From: Bacteroidota bacterium
Lineage (GTDB): Bacteria; Bacteroidota; Bacteroidia; CAILMK01; JAAYUY01
Assembly (NCBI GenBank): GCA_018698135.1
Contig: JABINZ010000263.1
Span: forward strand, 1 to 41,467
Reading direction: 5' to 3'
DNA: 41,467 nucleotides
Shown here: positions 2,249-32,575 of the stretch, one piece after another
Position numbering within the stretch: the first letter of the stretch is position 1
Layout of the letters: the number at the start of each line of letters is the position of its first letter
Translations under genes and position numbers: made by a program
The notes under the pieces: model-generated
The model's database searches: none
Told to the model about the DNA's origin: nothing
Seen by the model: only the letters and a program-made list of their open reading frames with translations

Positions 2249-5200
2249 TTATGCCCAGTAGATTAAATTGATATTTGTTCTATTAGTTAAGTCAGGATGC
2301 TTGGGTAGGACGCGCATTCCATAATTGAATTTTCCCGATTTTTGGGCTACATAGTTAATCGAATAGGTCAACACATCTTCCTTCTCAGCAACTAATTGCA
2401 TTTCAAAAACAGAAAAGTATTCATCATAAATTTCCAACTTGTCTCCATAAACAATGGAATCGTGAGATGAATCTTTAATGATAATTAACTGCGCACTGAT
2501 TTCTTCTTTGGTTAATTTACCTTTATGCACTTCAATGCTAGCCGAAACTACATCATTCACATTAAGCACATCCCCATTTCCACCTTTTAAGTTGATGGTG
2601 TTAATATGAATGCTGGCAAAACGATTACGAATTGATGAAAGCCATTCAGAAAAGGACTTTGCTTTTTCAAAGGAGTTGTCTGATAGCAAAGCATAGCGGC
2701 TTGCTGTTGGTAAATACATATCTCTGAAATAGTCATTCAACATGCGATGTGTATTAAATCCACCTAATATCGTAATCATCGATCGTTTCATTTTTTCAAC
2801 CCATTGAACGGGTACTCCTCTGTTATTTCGATTGTAATAAGAAGCAACTATTTCATTCTCCAGTATATCATAAAAAGATTCACTGTCAAATATGTTTTGT
2901 GTATCTGTATTTTTATATTGTTTTTGCTCTCCTATTGCCCAGCCATTGGTTGAATCATAGGCTTCATCCCACCAGCCATCTAAAATGCTGCAATTGATTA
3001 CTCCATTGATTCCTGCCTTCATGCCACTGGTTCCCGATGCTTCATTAGGCCGTATGGGATTGTTTAGCCATACATCCACTCCTGATACCAATTTTCGAGC
3101 AAGTTTAATATTGTAATCCTCCAAAAATATAATTTTACCTAAAAATTCAGGCATTTTTGAAATGGCCACAATCTCCTTAATTAATCGAGCTCCTTCCAAA
3201 TCATCAGGATGTGCTTTACCAGCGAAAACCAACTGAACAGGATATTCAGGATTTAAAAGAATTTTCTTCAATCGATCAAAATCCTTGAATAATAAAGTCG
3301 CCCTTTTATATGTGGCAAATCTTCGTGCAAAACCAATGGTCAGTGGAGTGGGATCCAAATTCTTTAAAAACAGTTCCAATTTTGCAGGTTCTTCTCCTTC
3401 CCTTGTCCAGTTTAAAGTAACTTTTTCTTTCACATAACTAAAGAAACGTTCTTTACTGGTGTTGTGAGCATGCCAGATATCCTTCTCTGGAATTTTATTA
3501 ATCTTCTCCCAAAAGTCTTTGTTAAGTTGTCCTTTCTGATAATCAATCGATTGATACTTATCAAATAAATCGCGCATTTCGGATGACAGCCACGTACTCA
3601 AATGAATTCCATTTGTAATATGGCTAATAGGTACTTCCTCTTGCAAAAAGCCGGGCCAAAGTTTAGACCACATTTTACGTGAAACAACTCCATGTAATTT
3701 GCTTACACCATTTCTCTTGAATGTATTGGTTAAAGCAAGAATTGTCATTTCATATTCAGCTTTTGAATTAGCATTTCGTCCGGAAATATCATTGAAATTT
3801 TTCCAGCTTAAACCATTTGCTTCAACATAACTTCTCAGATAATTTTCAACCAAATTATAATCAAAAACCTCATTGCCTGCAGGAACAGGTGTGTGGGTAG
3901 TAAAAACAGTACTTGATCTAATAAGCTCTTTGGCCGTATCAAAATCCAGTTTATTGTATTTAATTTGATTGATAAAGCGCTGGATGATTAAGAAAGCTGA
4001 ATGTCCTTCATTCAAATGGTATACAGAAGGAGTAATATTTAATTCCTGTAAAAGTTTAACACCACCTATACCCAGTATTAATTCTTGTTCGATTCGATTC
4101 TTTTTTCCTCCTCCATATAGATTTGATGTAATCAAACGATCAGCAGGGCTGTTTTCAAGAATATCGGTATCAAGCATATACACTTGAATTCGTCCAACCT
4201 GAATGACCCATGCTTTTGCAAACACTTCTCTTCCCGGAAAATCGATGGATATCAAAACGGCTTTCCCTCTTTTCCTGAGTTCATGTATAGGCATTCTATG
4301 AAAATCGTTGTGAAAATATTCGACTTTCTGATTTCCATCCAAGCCAATTCCCTGCATAAAATATCCTTTTCGGTAGAGTAATCCTACACCAATCAAAGGA
4401 ATGTTCATATCGGAAGCTGACTTAATATGATCGCCTGAAAGAATGCCCAAGCCACCGGAATAAATGGGAATTGATTCGTGAAAACCAAATTCCATACTAA
4501 AATAAGCAACAGGTTTTTCTGGAGTAATGTAATCATCTCCTTTCACCATTGATTTTTTAGCACTCATGTATTTATTGAACTTATTCATTACTTCTTCGTA
4601 AAAATGAAGATAATTTTCGCTTTGAATAACTTCCTGTAAACGTTGTGGATCAATGGTTTCAATTAAACTAACCGGATTGTTTCCCAATTTATCATATAAA
4701 TCAGGATCAAGCCTATTAAATAATTGATGAGCAACTGGATTCCACGCCCACCATAAATTAAAAGCCAAATCTCTTAACCCCTGAATTTCTTTAGGCATTG
4801 ACGACTTGACTGTGAAGTTCCGCAGTCGAGGTTTAGTGCTATCTGTTCCACTGAATGCGAGCGCATTCACATTTGTTTTACTTTTTTCCATATGACCGTC
4901 AAATCTCTCTTTTGAAACTTTTTCTGCATTTGTATAGGCTGTTAAGTAGTGAGGATAAAAATTCGCCCATTCAGCTTGTAAAGCCAGCTCACGCAAACCC
5001 GGCCTTAGCTCATCAGCTTGCTTATTGCTCCGATTTATAAATTCCATAATGGATTCGGATAGCTCGTTAACCACAACATCGTGTGATTGATTATAGCGCT
5101 TGATTACATGAACTCCCGGAACCGTTTTTTTCTGCGCATTAACCCATAATCCAAATCCGGCTAAGTCAGTGGTTATTGTTGGAATACTAAATGCCACACT

Positions 5201-6496
5201 TTCAAGAGGGGTATATCCCCATGGCTCATAATAGGATGCAAAAACAGCTAAATCACAACCCGATAATGCATCGTAATATTCCATGTCAATTAGGCGATCT
5301 CGTCCATCTAAATAAATTGGAATAAAGATTAAATTAATTTTGTCGTTCTCACCATTCAATAAATTGTGCTGATTAGCAGCCTTCACAATAGGATCATCGT
5401 TCTGATTCCATAAAGGATGGGTTGCGATTTTAGCATGACGGACTCCGGATAGATTTTGGCTTTGATTGTTCGCCTCATTAGATCCGGCCAAAACAAACAT
5501 AAATACAATTAACTCCTTATTTTTGGCTAAACGATCTTCCTTTTTTATTCTTGCAATTGCATCTAACAATACATCCAATCCTTTGTTTCGATACTCATAT
5601 CGACCAGATGTTGACAGAATGAATGCATTTTCTTCATCAATATCCTTTTGAAGAAATTTAGAGGCTATTTCCAATAGTCTTTTTCTGTTTTTCTTGAAGT
5701 GCTCTGGATTTTTCTGATAATCGGGCACTTTGCTCATATCAAATCCATTTGGCAAAACCTGATCGACAGGCACATTCAGTAAATGTTTTGCTTCCATGGC
5801 TGTAATATCACTCACAGTTGTAAAGCTATCTGCCTCGTGTGCACAAATCTTCTCCATCGAATATTTTGCCAGAATATTAAATCGTGCTGCTTCACTATCT
5901 GGATTAATATTTTCAATAACACGATACAAATCAATTCCATTACCTGCAATGGAACGCCCTAGAATAGTAGCATGGGTTGTAAACACAGTACTGATATGTG
6001 GCGCATACTTTCTCAGATAGAGCAAACCAGAGCCTGTCATCCACTCATGGAAATGAGCAATTGTTTCCAGATCATCATAAATATCGCTAATTGCCTCAAT
6101 TACTCTTCCTGCATGATTGGCAAAGGAAACTGGTTCAATATAGTCCCATCCTCCGGTCATTGAGTCAACACCATATTCTTCCCATAATTCAAAAAGGATT
6201 TTATCTTTATCGACTATAGATGGAGGAACTAAAATAACAGCTGGTTTTTCGGGTAAATCCCAATATCCCACTTTTGCAAGTATTCCAAGGTGATCCAATT
6301 TGTGTTTGATGGTCAACATACTTGCTGAGTTCGATTCAACAAAGCCAGGATTTGAGTCCAGGAGAGGTCCTATTAGAAAATAGTTTTTACCAAATGCAGC
6401 GGTTGCTTGCTCCAATTTTGATGTAATAACAGTATATATTCCACCTACTTTATTACATACCTCCCAGGATACTTCAAAAAGTAATTTATGATTCAT
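2249..6496 (-). CDS. Glycogen synthase (GT3) - alpha-glucan phosphorylase (GT35) fusion
   Basis: About 1415 residues from the ATG at 6494-6496; an in-frame GTG at 6505 would add three. Residues 1-520 resemble eukaryotic-type glycogen synthase: FEVSWEVCNKVGGIYTVI at the N-terminus and the E-x7-E retaining-GT signature (YEPWGYTPLE) at about 424-432. After a linker at about 525-555 comes a short-form phosphorylase: a DUF3417-type entry segment (LRDLAFNLWWAWNP), YFSMEFGFHESIPIYSGGLG, and EASGTSGMK with the PLP-binding lysine at about 1160. A beta-rich tail ends the protein. One chain thus carries both the enzyme that adds glucosyl units from a nucleotide sugar and the one that removes them as glucose-1-phosphate. 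Last gene of the glycogen operon, 87 nt after the GH57 gene. Both halves look intact. Confidence 0.93.
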   Translation of the reverse strand: MNHKLLFEVSWEVCNKVGGIYTVITSKLEQATAAFGKNYFLIGPLLDSNPGFVESNSASMLTIKHKLDHLGILAKVGYWDLPEKPAVILVPPSIVDKDKILFELWEEYGVDSMTGGWDYIEPVSFANHAGRVIEAISDIYDDLETIAHFHEWMTGSGLLYLRKYAPHISTVFTTHATILGRSIAGNGIDLYRVIENINPDSEAARFNILAKYSMEKICAHEADSFTTVSDITAMEAKHLLNVPVDQVLPNGFDMSKVPDYQKNPEHFKKNRKRLLEIASKFLQKDIDEENAFILSTSGRYEYRNKGLDVLLDAIARIKKEDRLAKNKELIVFMFVLAGSNEANNQSQNLSGVRHAKIATHPLWNQNDDPIVKAANQHNLLNGENDKINLIFIPIYLDGRDRLIDMEYYDALSGCDLAVFASYYEPWGYTPLESVAFSIPTITTDLAGFGLWVNAQKKTVPGVHVIKRYNQSHDVVVNELSESIMEFINRSNKQADELRPGLRELALQAEWANFYPHYLTAYTNAEKVSKERFDGHMEKSKTNVNALAFSGTDSTKPRLRNFTVKSSMPKEIQGLRDLAFNLWWAWNPVAHQLFNRLDPDLYDKLGNNPVSLIETIDPQRLQEVIQSENYLHFYEEVMNKFNKYMSAKKSMVKGDDYITPEKPVAYFSMEFGFHESIPIYSGGLGILSGDHIKSASDMNIPLIGVGLLYRKGYFMQGIGLDGNQKVEYFHNDFHRMPIHELRKRGKAVLISIDFPGREVFAKAWVIQVGRIQVYMLDTDILENSPADRLITSNLYGGGKKNRIEQELILGIGGVKLLQELNITPSVYHLNEGHSAFLIIQRFINQIKYNKLDFDTAKELIRSSTVFTTHTPVPAGNEVFDYNLVENYLRSYVEANGLSWKNFNDISGRNANSKAEYEMTILALTNTFKRNGVSKLHGVVSRKMWSKLWPGFLQEEVPISHITNGIHLSTWLSSEMRDLFDKYQSIDYQKGQLNKDFWEKINKIPEKDIWHAHNTSKERFFSYVKEKVTLNWTREGEEPAKLELFLKNLDPTPLTIGFARRFATYKRATLLFKDFDRLKKILLNPEYPVQLVFAGKAHPDDLEGARLIKEIVAISKMPEFLGKIIFLEDYNIKLARKLVSGVDVWLNNPIRPNEASGTSGMKAGINGVINCSILDGWWDEAYDSTNGWAIGEQKQYKNTDTQNIFDSESFYDILENEIVASYYNRNNRGVPVQWVEKMKRSMITILGGFNTHRMLNDYFRDMYLPTASRYALLSDNSFEKAKSFSEWLSSIRNRFASIHINTINLKGGNGDVLNVNDVVSASIEVHKGKLTKEEISAQLIIIKDSSHDSIVYGDKLEIYDEYFSVFEMQLVAEKEDVLTYSINYVAQKSGKFNYGMRVLPKHPDLTNRTNINLIYWA

Positions 6497-6583
6497 TTTT
6501 TGCACGTTCGATATTTATTAATCTTGTTATTTGGGTAGTTGGCTAAAATCAATACACAGAAAAATCCAAAGTTTCTTCAGTGA

Positions 6584-31364: not shown

Positions 31365-32474
31365 TTAATTTAAGTACTTCAAATAATGAGAAAGAAACAC
31401 ATCATACAAGCGATAGCCATCATCCAATTTGATTAAATATCGCTTATCCAATAAAGTTTTCAGGACACGTTGCATACTACTTGAATTTTTTACACCAGAA
31501 AATTTAAGAAAATCGCCAGAAGTAGGAGCCACAACCTTATTCTTTAGAGCAAATGCACGTAAGCATGCAAACTGTTGATTTGTAAGCCTATCTGGCAATT
31601 CGCTATAGTAAACATGTTTTTCTTCCAGATACTCCAAATATATAATTTCAAAATCATTTACACTTTCCGGTAAGTTGTCAAGGCTATATAAATAATTGAA
31701 TATACTCTGAACATAGAAAGTATGGCCAAATGTTATGTTTAAAACGTGTTCAATAATGGCATCATTTATCTCTCTTTTTGACTTCTTAAATTGTTTTTGA
31801 ATAAAATCGCCATATTTTTTTTCATCAATTATGTCCAATGAAAACATTCTTGTAGAAACATAAAATGGTCTGACTGGATTGTTAAAAATTTCATTTATAA
31901 TATGATACTCACTCCCACTAAATACAAAGCTTATGTTGTTACTTGCCTGAACATATTTTCTCAATTTTGCTTCTAAAGCAAATTCTTTTTCATACTTCGT
32001 AATTTCTTGAAATTCGTCAATGGCCAATATTACTTTTTTATTTTGATCATTCAGGAAAAAAAATATTTCTTCAAGGCTTTTAAAAAGTTGTTTTTTTTCA
32101 GAATAATTCAGACTTACTGATGGAGTGCCATCAACACCAAAACTTATTGAAGTACCCAAAGATTGAATAAATGAAGTAAGTTTTTGCGGCAATTTTCTGC
32201 TAGCGAATAAATTACTTCGAATTATGGCATTCGCTATTTCATTTATAAATTCTGAGACAGTTTTTGTTCCCCAAAGGTCAGCATAAATACATATATAATC
32301 CTTCCTTAAATAATAGAACACATTGTAAATCAGTGCGGTTTTGCCAAGCCTTCTATATGCATAAAGCGTTATATCCTGCTGATTGGTAAGTGCTTTTATA
32401 ATACTATTGGTTTCCTTTTCCCTGTCACAAAAATAGTCTGGACTTTTATAATTCTTAAGTATAAATGGGTTCAT
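31365..32474 (-). CDS. AAA+ ATPase of the archaeal-ATPase (ATPase_2) type with C-terminal winged helix
   Basis: About 369 residues from the ATG at 32472-32474 (MNPFILKNYKSPDYF, the usual opening); the longer frame runs into the upstream repeats. P-loop AYRRLGKT (39-46), Walker B KVILAIDEFQE (147-157) and a sensor-like stretch SFVFSGSEYHI (about 181-191) are seen. Residues from about 300 form a winged helix (LTNQQFACLRAFALKNK, SMQRVLKTLLDKRYLIK). Such STAND-like ATPases are common, poorly understood genes, often mobile or associated with defence or toxin-antitoxin-like units. The 25-bp repeats directly upstream may be its own binding sites. It interrupts an otherwise NO-stress set. Function not assigned. 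Confidence 0.8.
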   Translation of the reverse strand: MNPFILKNYKSPDYFCDREKETNSIIKALTNQQDITLYAYRRLGKTALIYNVFYYLRKDYICIYADLWGTKTVSEFINEIANAIIRSNLFASRKLPQKLTSFIQSLGTSISFGVDGTPSVSLNYSEKKQLFKSLEEIFFFLNDQNKKVILAIDEFQEITKYEKEFALEAKLRKYVQASNNISFVFSGSEYHIINEIFNNPVRPFYVSTRMFSLDIIDEKKYGDFIQKQFKKSKREINDAIIEHVLNITFGHTFYVQSIFNYLYSLDNLPESVNDFEIIYLEYLEEKHVYYSELPDRLTNQQFACLRAFALKNKVVAPTSGDFLKFSGVKNSSSMQRVLKTLLDKRYLIKLDDGYRLYDVFLSHYLKYLN

Positions 32475-32505
32475 GATCAGATTATTTTGAATGTTTTTCA
32501 CATGT

Positions 32506-32575
32506 TGCGTCACGCATTGTGCGTAATATATGATTTATATTTACACAAAGTGCGTTACGCATTGTGCGTAAATAT
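32506..32575. repeat. Two 25-bp direct repeats upstream of the AAA+ gene
   Basis: Unit A (32506-32530) and unit B (32551-32575) share TGCGT-N-ACGCA-TTG-TGCGT followed by an A/T-rich end, one base different in the core, 45 bp apart. Each has three TGCGT/ACGCA half-sites, so it is both a direct and an inverted repeat. They lie 32-101 nt before the AAA+ start codon. A near -7 element (TATATTTA, minus, 32576-32569) overlaps the edge of unit B. Operator sites or a mobile-element end are both possible. Confidence 0.75.

Follow-up and report, generated by a model that had tools for sequence, protein, structure and literature searches.

Do compound repeats that lie in front of an orphan ATPase gene serve that gene, and is the ATPase itself their reader? 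The question is raised by contig JABINZ010000263.1 of a Bacteroidota bacterium (assembly GCA_018698135.1), which was analyzed over its whole length of 41,467 nucleotides (here, the window). A sequence-only reading of the window had pointed out TGCGT/ACGCA repeats at 32506 to 32575, upstream of a gene for an AAA+/STAND-type ATPase, and had proposed a self-regulating, possibly mobile or defense-related unit whose repeats are its recognition sites. Arrays of short palindromes recur upstream of homologues of this gene, and their sequence covaries with the DNA recognition helix of the protein; on these grounds, the array is very probably the ATPase's own operator, which would be bound through the C-terminal winged helix and would control the gene's own transcription.

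Palindromic arrays flank the probable promoter of the ATPase gene

A pattern search of the window found two exact matches to TGCGTNACGCATTGTGCGT, namely, TGCGTCACGCATTGTGCGT at 32506 to 32524 and TGCGTTACGCATTGTGCGT at 32551 to 32569, and none in 100 dinucleotide shuffles of the window. When the host genome (4.23 Mb) was searched with a slightly looser pattern and up to two mismatches, five places were found, four of them within the array of the ATPase gene. The fifth, a two-mismatch match on another contig, was at the level of a reversed control pattern (three matches), and the same genome-wide search placed no further copy of the array beside any other gene. The repeats are thus real, and in the host genome, the compound motif is confined to the locus of the ATPase and is not spread over unrelated loci.

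The unit had been described as 25 bp with three half-sites. Its repetition stood, and its length did not: comparison across the ATPase family defined the unit, on the gene strand, as a 14-bp imperfect palindrome present as a tandem pair in each array, giving four alternating half-sites per array, the outermost of which are degenerate. The putative distal array (32542 to 32569, minus strand) comprises ACGCACAATGCGTA and ACGCACTTTGTGTA, and the putative proximal array (32497 to 32524, minus strand) comprises ACGCACAATGCGTG and ACGCAACATGTGAA, all written on the gene strand. Both lie 22 to 95 bp upstream of the ATPase start codon and flank a 17-bp A/T-rich stretch (32525 to 32541, minus strand). 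Judging from inspection of this stretch and from the arrays of the family, most of which overlap a TAnnTTTG element or sit just before it, the stretch probably holds the core (−7) promoter of the ATPase gene, which would place the proximal array downstream of the promoter core and ahead of the start codon. A scan with the sigma-70 consensus, which does not cover Bacteroidota-type promoters, found no site in the gap. By self-lag alone (see below), the window array was of moderate significance, with 1 of 30 shuffles reaching the same score, and it is the family comparison, not the window alone, that makes the case for the array compelling.

The ATPase has a P-loop domain and a C-terminal winged helix

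The gene (31365 to 32474, minus strand) encodes 369 amino acids, which we examined by Pfam search, homologue alignments, an AlphaFold2 model, and fold comparison. A longer open reading frame with a GTG start (31365 to 32513) begins inside the array; however, homologues align from Asn2 of the ATG start at 32474 (MNPF...), so the GTG within the repeat is not likely to be the gene start. The P-loop domain (approximately residues 1 to 250) matches PF01637 (ATPase_2) with 44.9 bits against a curated cutoff of 33.2 (E value, 1.6e-11), and residues R41, G44, K45, D153, E154, G187, and S188, which belong to the P-loop, Walker B, and sensor motifs, are invariant in 79 homologues. The winged helix spans residues 299 to 367, with Arg336 inside its recognition helix (residues 331 to 343). 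It is confidently modeled in the AlphaFold2 structure, which has a predicted local distance difference test score (pLDDT) of 94 and whose nearest folds are PABY2304 (2qen; Z score, 24.6) and SSO1545 (2fna; Z score, 23.4) over 332 to 334 residues. No nuclease-like domain follows the winged helix; the 369-residue protein ends there, and Pfam gave no such match.

Array geometry is fixed by protein clade, and array sequence is free

The prediction that the repeat lies upstream of homologues held for its geometry and failed for its exact sequence, which is absent in most of them and appears to have been redrawn in step with the protein. The ATPase, which combines PF01637 with a C-terminal winged helix, was compared with its homologues. 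The first 49, obtained from a search of genome contigs, were mostly from Bacteroidales and 28 to 37% identical to the window ATPase, and their short upstream repeats differed widely in sequence. An initial repeat score based on 9-mers with one mismatch gave no excess for many homologues, the window included; a 9-mer exceeds the length of the half-site, which made this score uninformative, and a self-lag analysis was used instead. After further genomes had been added, removal of redundancy at 85% identity left 82 upstream regions, and 196 upstream regions of other open reading frames from the same loci served as controls.

Homologue upstream regions showed a sharp self-lag peak at 14 and 15 bp, whereas shuffles were flat. 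The best lag was 14 or 15 bp in 60 of 82 nonredundant homologues, with a further 7 at 28 and 3 at 7; among controls, it was 14 or 15 bp in only 21 of 196, spread flat over all lags. Likewise, a self-lag score of at least 16 was reached by 65% of homologues compared to 3.6% of controls. Examples of array units are TTTACAAATTGTAA (four copies), TTCTAATAATTGAA (two copies), ACGGTTTTTCCGTA (two copies), and TGCGTTACGCATTT (three to four copies). A sister subfamily (II) was reached through a paralogue in the window's own genome, a short ATPase on contig C92 with 27% identity to the window ATPase and a different 15-bp array of its own (TATTATACCTTTTTG). In this subfamily, 28 of 30 members had a period of exactly 15 bp, so that two genes of one genome differ in period, 14 bp for the window ATPase and 15 bp for its paralogue. 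Period tracked protein clade overall (Fisher test, 7e-16), apart from a minority of subfamily I, mostly from rumen Prevotella, with a 15-bp period. The rule was repeated in new genomes of other classes: in a held-out set, 12 of 13 members of subfamily I were at 14 or 28 bp, and 7 of 9 sequences assigned to subfamily II were at 15 bp. Arrays were also present upstream of homologues on a Vibrio plasmid and a Geobacter plasmid. The period is characteristic of the protein subfamily; the unit sequence is free. Across the family, the distance from the end of the array to the start codon has a median of 20 bp. Relative to the −7 element, arrays take all three positions (upstream, overlapping, and downstream), and where TAnnTTTG is recognizable, most of them either overlap it or sit immediately before it.

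Operator bases covary with the recognition helix

To compare operators, we wrote the 14-bp unit as a half-site, h1 to h6, counted outwards from the dyad, for which the consensus is A-C/T-G/A-C/T-A-A/T. The strongest of all residue-by-base pairs in 54 operators was that of R336 with C at h4 (23/23 with R336 versus 7/31 with other residues; p = 2.7e-9). Position h2 went with residues 330 and 332, and all three residues belong to the first part of the recognition helix. We then scored 59 held-out arrays that had not been used to derive the code, using a script with a frozen consensus and leaving exceptions as scored. R or K at position 336 went with C at h4 in 38 of 42 cases, compared to 0 of 17 for other residues (p = 2e-11); R336 went with A at h5 in 19 of 19 and K336 with C or T at h5 in 19 of 23 (p = 2e-8). 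T336 was accompanied by T (8/8) and S336 by A (4/4). Because many of the held-out sequences are related to one another, these p values overstate independence, and part of the set (subfamily II) had been inspected by eye and in an earlier analysis before the scripted test. The apparent residue-to-base code, as read from these alignments, is CA for R336, CC or CT for K336, T for T336, and A for S336.

Several observations weigh against reading the array as the ATPase's own operator. Related sequences inflate simple p values, and the comparison of phylogenetically independent pairs for R/K336, although wholly concordant (5 concordant and 0 discordant pairs), is small (p = 0.03). In a whole-domain Mantel test, the winged helix was not separated from the ATPase domain (partial correlations, 0.120 versus 0.112), and several ATPase-domain columns also scored high in the residue-base tests. 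Those columns probably reflect shared ancestry, and the covariation signal sits in single positions rather than in whole domains. In addition, roughly one homologue in four or five had no clear array, homologues on an Arcobacter plasmid and a Marinomonas plasmid had none, and a −7 consensus element was not identified in the window itself.

A probable private self-operator and its alternatives

With these points taken into account, the family-wide arrays and the helix-operator covariation support the proposed self-regulation of the ATPase through its own recognition sites. In the mechanism that we infer, the ATPase would bind its own promoter directly through the recognition helix of its winged helix, probably lining up as dimers in a row, or as a short filament, at 14-bp intervals, and would thereby control its own transcription. 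Autorepression is the likelier sign, because the arrays overlap the core promoter or closely adjoin it on either side, where polymerase would be blocked. Having a STAND/Cdc6-type ATPase as the reader suggests a nucleotide-dependent switch, in which assembly would be turned on or off by binding of ATP or by a ligand that the ATPase senses.

It is unlikely, although worth serious consideration, that the ATPase instead binds the array as an activator or chiefly controls its neighbors, i.e., the nitric oxide (NO) and nitrate genes here and cas1 elsewhere. Arrays with a recognizable TAnnTTTG are mostly upstream of that element, in 43 of 77 loci the next gene downstream shares the strand of the ATPase gene, many of these neighbors are nearby, and the ATPase gene stands directly before cas1 in several loci. 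MalT, a STAND-type regulator, is an activator. So is IniR, another regulator of this type (PMC5760070). In many genes, however, the array overlaps or follows the core promoter, which fits repression better, and the neighbors are not conserved, nor does any other gene of the host have an array copy nearby. The location of the arrays also bears on whether the locus could be a replication or mobility module, with an Orc1/Cdc6-like initiator or a TnsC-like ATPase acting on iteron-like sites in a selfish element, living or remnant. The fold is similar to those of TnsC/MuB-type ATPases and of Cdc6/Orc1 on origin DNA, the tandem sites resemble iterons, some homologue copies are on plasmids, and the ATPase gene is patchy in distribution with variable neighbors. 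Nevertheless, the arrays adjoin the start codon, and the majority are located at the promoter or overlap it; the copies found are for the most part single genes on chromosome-type contigs; and no conserved partner, transposase, terminal repeats, or clean empty site was found. We regard such a module as very improbable.

Two further explanations seem to us barely tenable. The locus contains an Rrf2 regulator and NO-related genes, and an unrelated protein that regulates the NO and nitrate genes, e.g., one of the Rrf2/NsrR or Crp/FNR type, might bind the repeats; however, the motif occurs genome-wide only at the ATPase promoter, and homologues of the ATPase in unrelated loci and phyla have arrays as well. 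The repeats are also palindromic and lie partly within the probable leader, as would suit hairpins in a leader RNA, but in most homologues that have a recognizable −7 element, the array is upstream of or across this element and so is not wholly transcribed, and it covaries with a DNA-binding helix. The explanation that best accommodates these observations is that the array is the ATPase's own operator.

Genomic context and hints of a defense role

In the window, the ATPase gene lies among hemerythrin/RIC, Rrf2, and nitrate reductase genes and, as had been noted, splits an NO response set. It is absent from the three other genomes of the host's family. A congener with 91% NarG identity has the same nar locus without the ATPase gene and without the hemerythrin-PAS gene, with a different 185-amino-acid hemerythrin gene directly before the NapH-like gene. 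Since the flanking gene differs, this locus is not the clean empty site that had been sought, and none was found in the relatives. Likewise, no target duplication, partner transposase, or conserved partner was found. These findings do not demonstrate the proposed mobility; absence in relatives together with nonconserved neighbors shows only that the gene is accessory. Elsewhere in the window, a single 1,418-amino-acid open reading frame (2249 to 6505) resembles a fusion of a glycogen synthase-like portion with a glycogen phosphorylase-like portion.

Neighbors of the homologues are not conserved, with the exception of five flavobacterial-type loci with type II-like CRISPR (L074, L076, L078, L079, and L090), in which cas1 is the gene immediately downstream of the ATPase gene. 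At least three of these loci (L074, L079, and L090) apparently have the cas9 frame just before the ATPase gene, as judged from C-terminal sequence and not from a profile match. We found no published account, in the open-licence literature, of an ATPase between cas9 and cas1 with such arrays. In one family of the host phylum (f82), ATPase_2 and the winged helix form the N terminus of proteins of 1,300 to 1,900 amino acids that also contain TIR_2, a second P-loop NTPase, and pentapeptide and WD40 repeats (L205 to L215 and L217 to L220), and 14-bp arrays lie upstream of several of these fusion genes. PADLOC gave no match for the window ATPase and weak matches to candidate families for some homologues. 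In phage records, only two homologues were found, both on small, unverified fecal contigs. The TIR/WD40 fusions, cas1 adjacency, and weak PADLOC matches are no more than a hint of a defense role. A tentative extension, which we consider unlikely, is that these are self-addressed immune-type sensors: each ATPase would be kept silent on a private array that coevolves with its helix, so that paralogues would not be cross-regulated; a trigger such as phage or DNA stress would free the array; and in clades such as the TIR/WD40 fusions, the freed protein would itself act as an NLR-like effector.

Relation to known systems

The fold and family of the ATPase are already known from SSO1545, PABY2304, and Cdc6/Orc1-like proteins. 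The archaeal ATPase_2 proteins SSO1545 and PABY2304 share the full-length fold, including the C-terminal winged helix, and are sequence-profile relatives, but we found no operator array or autoregulation reported for them in the open-licence literature. Cdc6/Orc1 initiators similarly combine AAA+ and winged-helix domains with repeated DNA sites (2qby; Z score, 18.2); they bind origins, however, whereas the ATPase arrays are promoter proximal and private to each gene. Phage and plasmid repressors, and type Ia ParA, are alike in binding repeats of their own promoters, and the ATPase family differs from them in its gene-private operators, residue-to-base code, clade-fixed spacing, and AAA+ reader. 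MalT and IniR also couple a STAND/AAA+ ATPase to a DNA-binding domain but have large sensor domains and separate target operons, while the window ATPase lacks a sensor domain and apparently acts on a single target, its own gene. The ATPase domain of IniR has been modeled on SSO1545 (PMC5760070).

Long ATPase_2 genes of the COG1672/arCOG03166 type (L120 to L149) were considered as wider carriers of the 14/15-bp array and were rejected. They share the ATPase_2 domain and have a palindrome at their own promoter, but in place of an array there is one inverted repeat, e.g., CGCCAAA...TTTGGCG, with arms approximately 25 to 30 bp apart that bracket the promoter and a sequence that varies between genes. 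Their products, of approximately 470 amino acids, appear to carry a C-terminal nuclease-like DUF234 domain, as read from length and tail sequence and not from a profile match. The host genome itself holds two such long-form ATPases (contigs C192 and C103). arCOG03166 has been described as an AAA+ ATPase fused to helix-turn-helix and RecB nuclease domains, with a likely role in defense or on plasmids (PMC4158269).

Circuits in which a protein regulates its own gene through tandem operators are known. What is apparently undescribed is an ATPase family with private, drifting arrays, a clade-fixed period, and a readable recognition code; we found no account of self-addressed ATPase arrays in the open-licence literature. 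A widespread class of "ATP-binding proteins" would thereby gain a concrete predicted function, sequence-specific binding at their own promoters. The family would also provide many protein-operator pairs in which sequence is free to diverge while geometry stays fixed and a simple code holds, a natural data set on the evolution of DNA specificity without the constraint of a regulon. Finally, fusion of the same module to TIR and WD40 parts ties the family to a question posed by STAND and NLR proteins in general, that of how such ATPases stay off.
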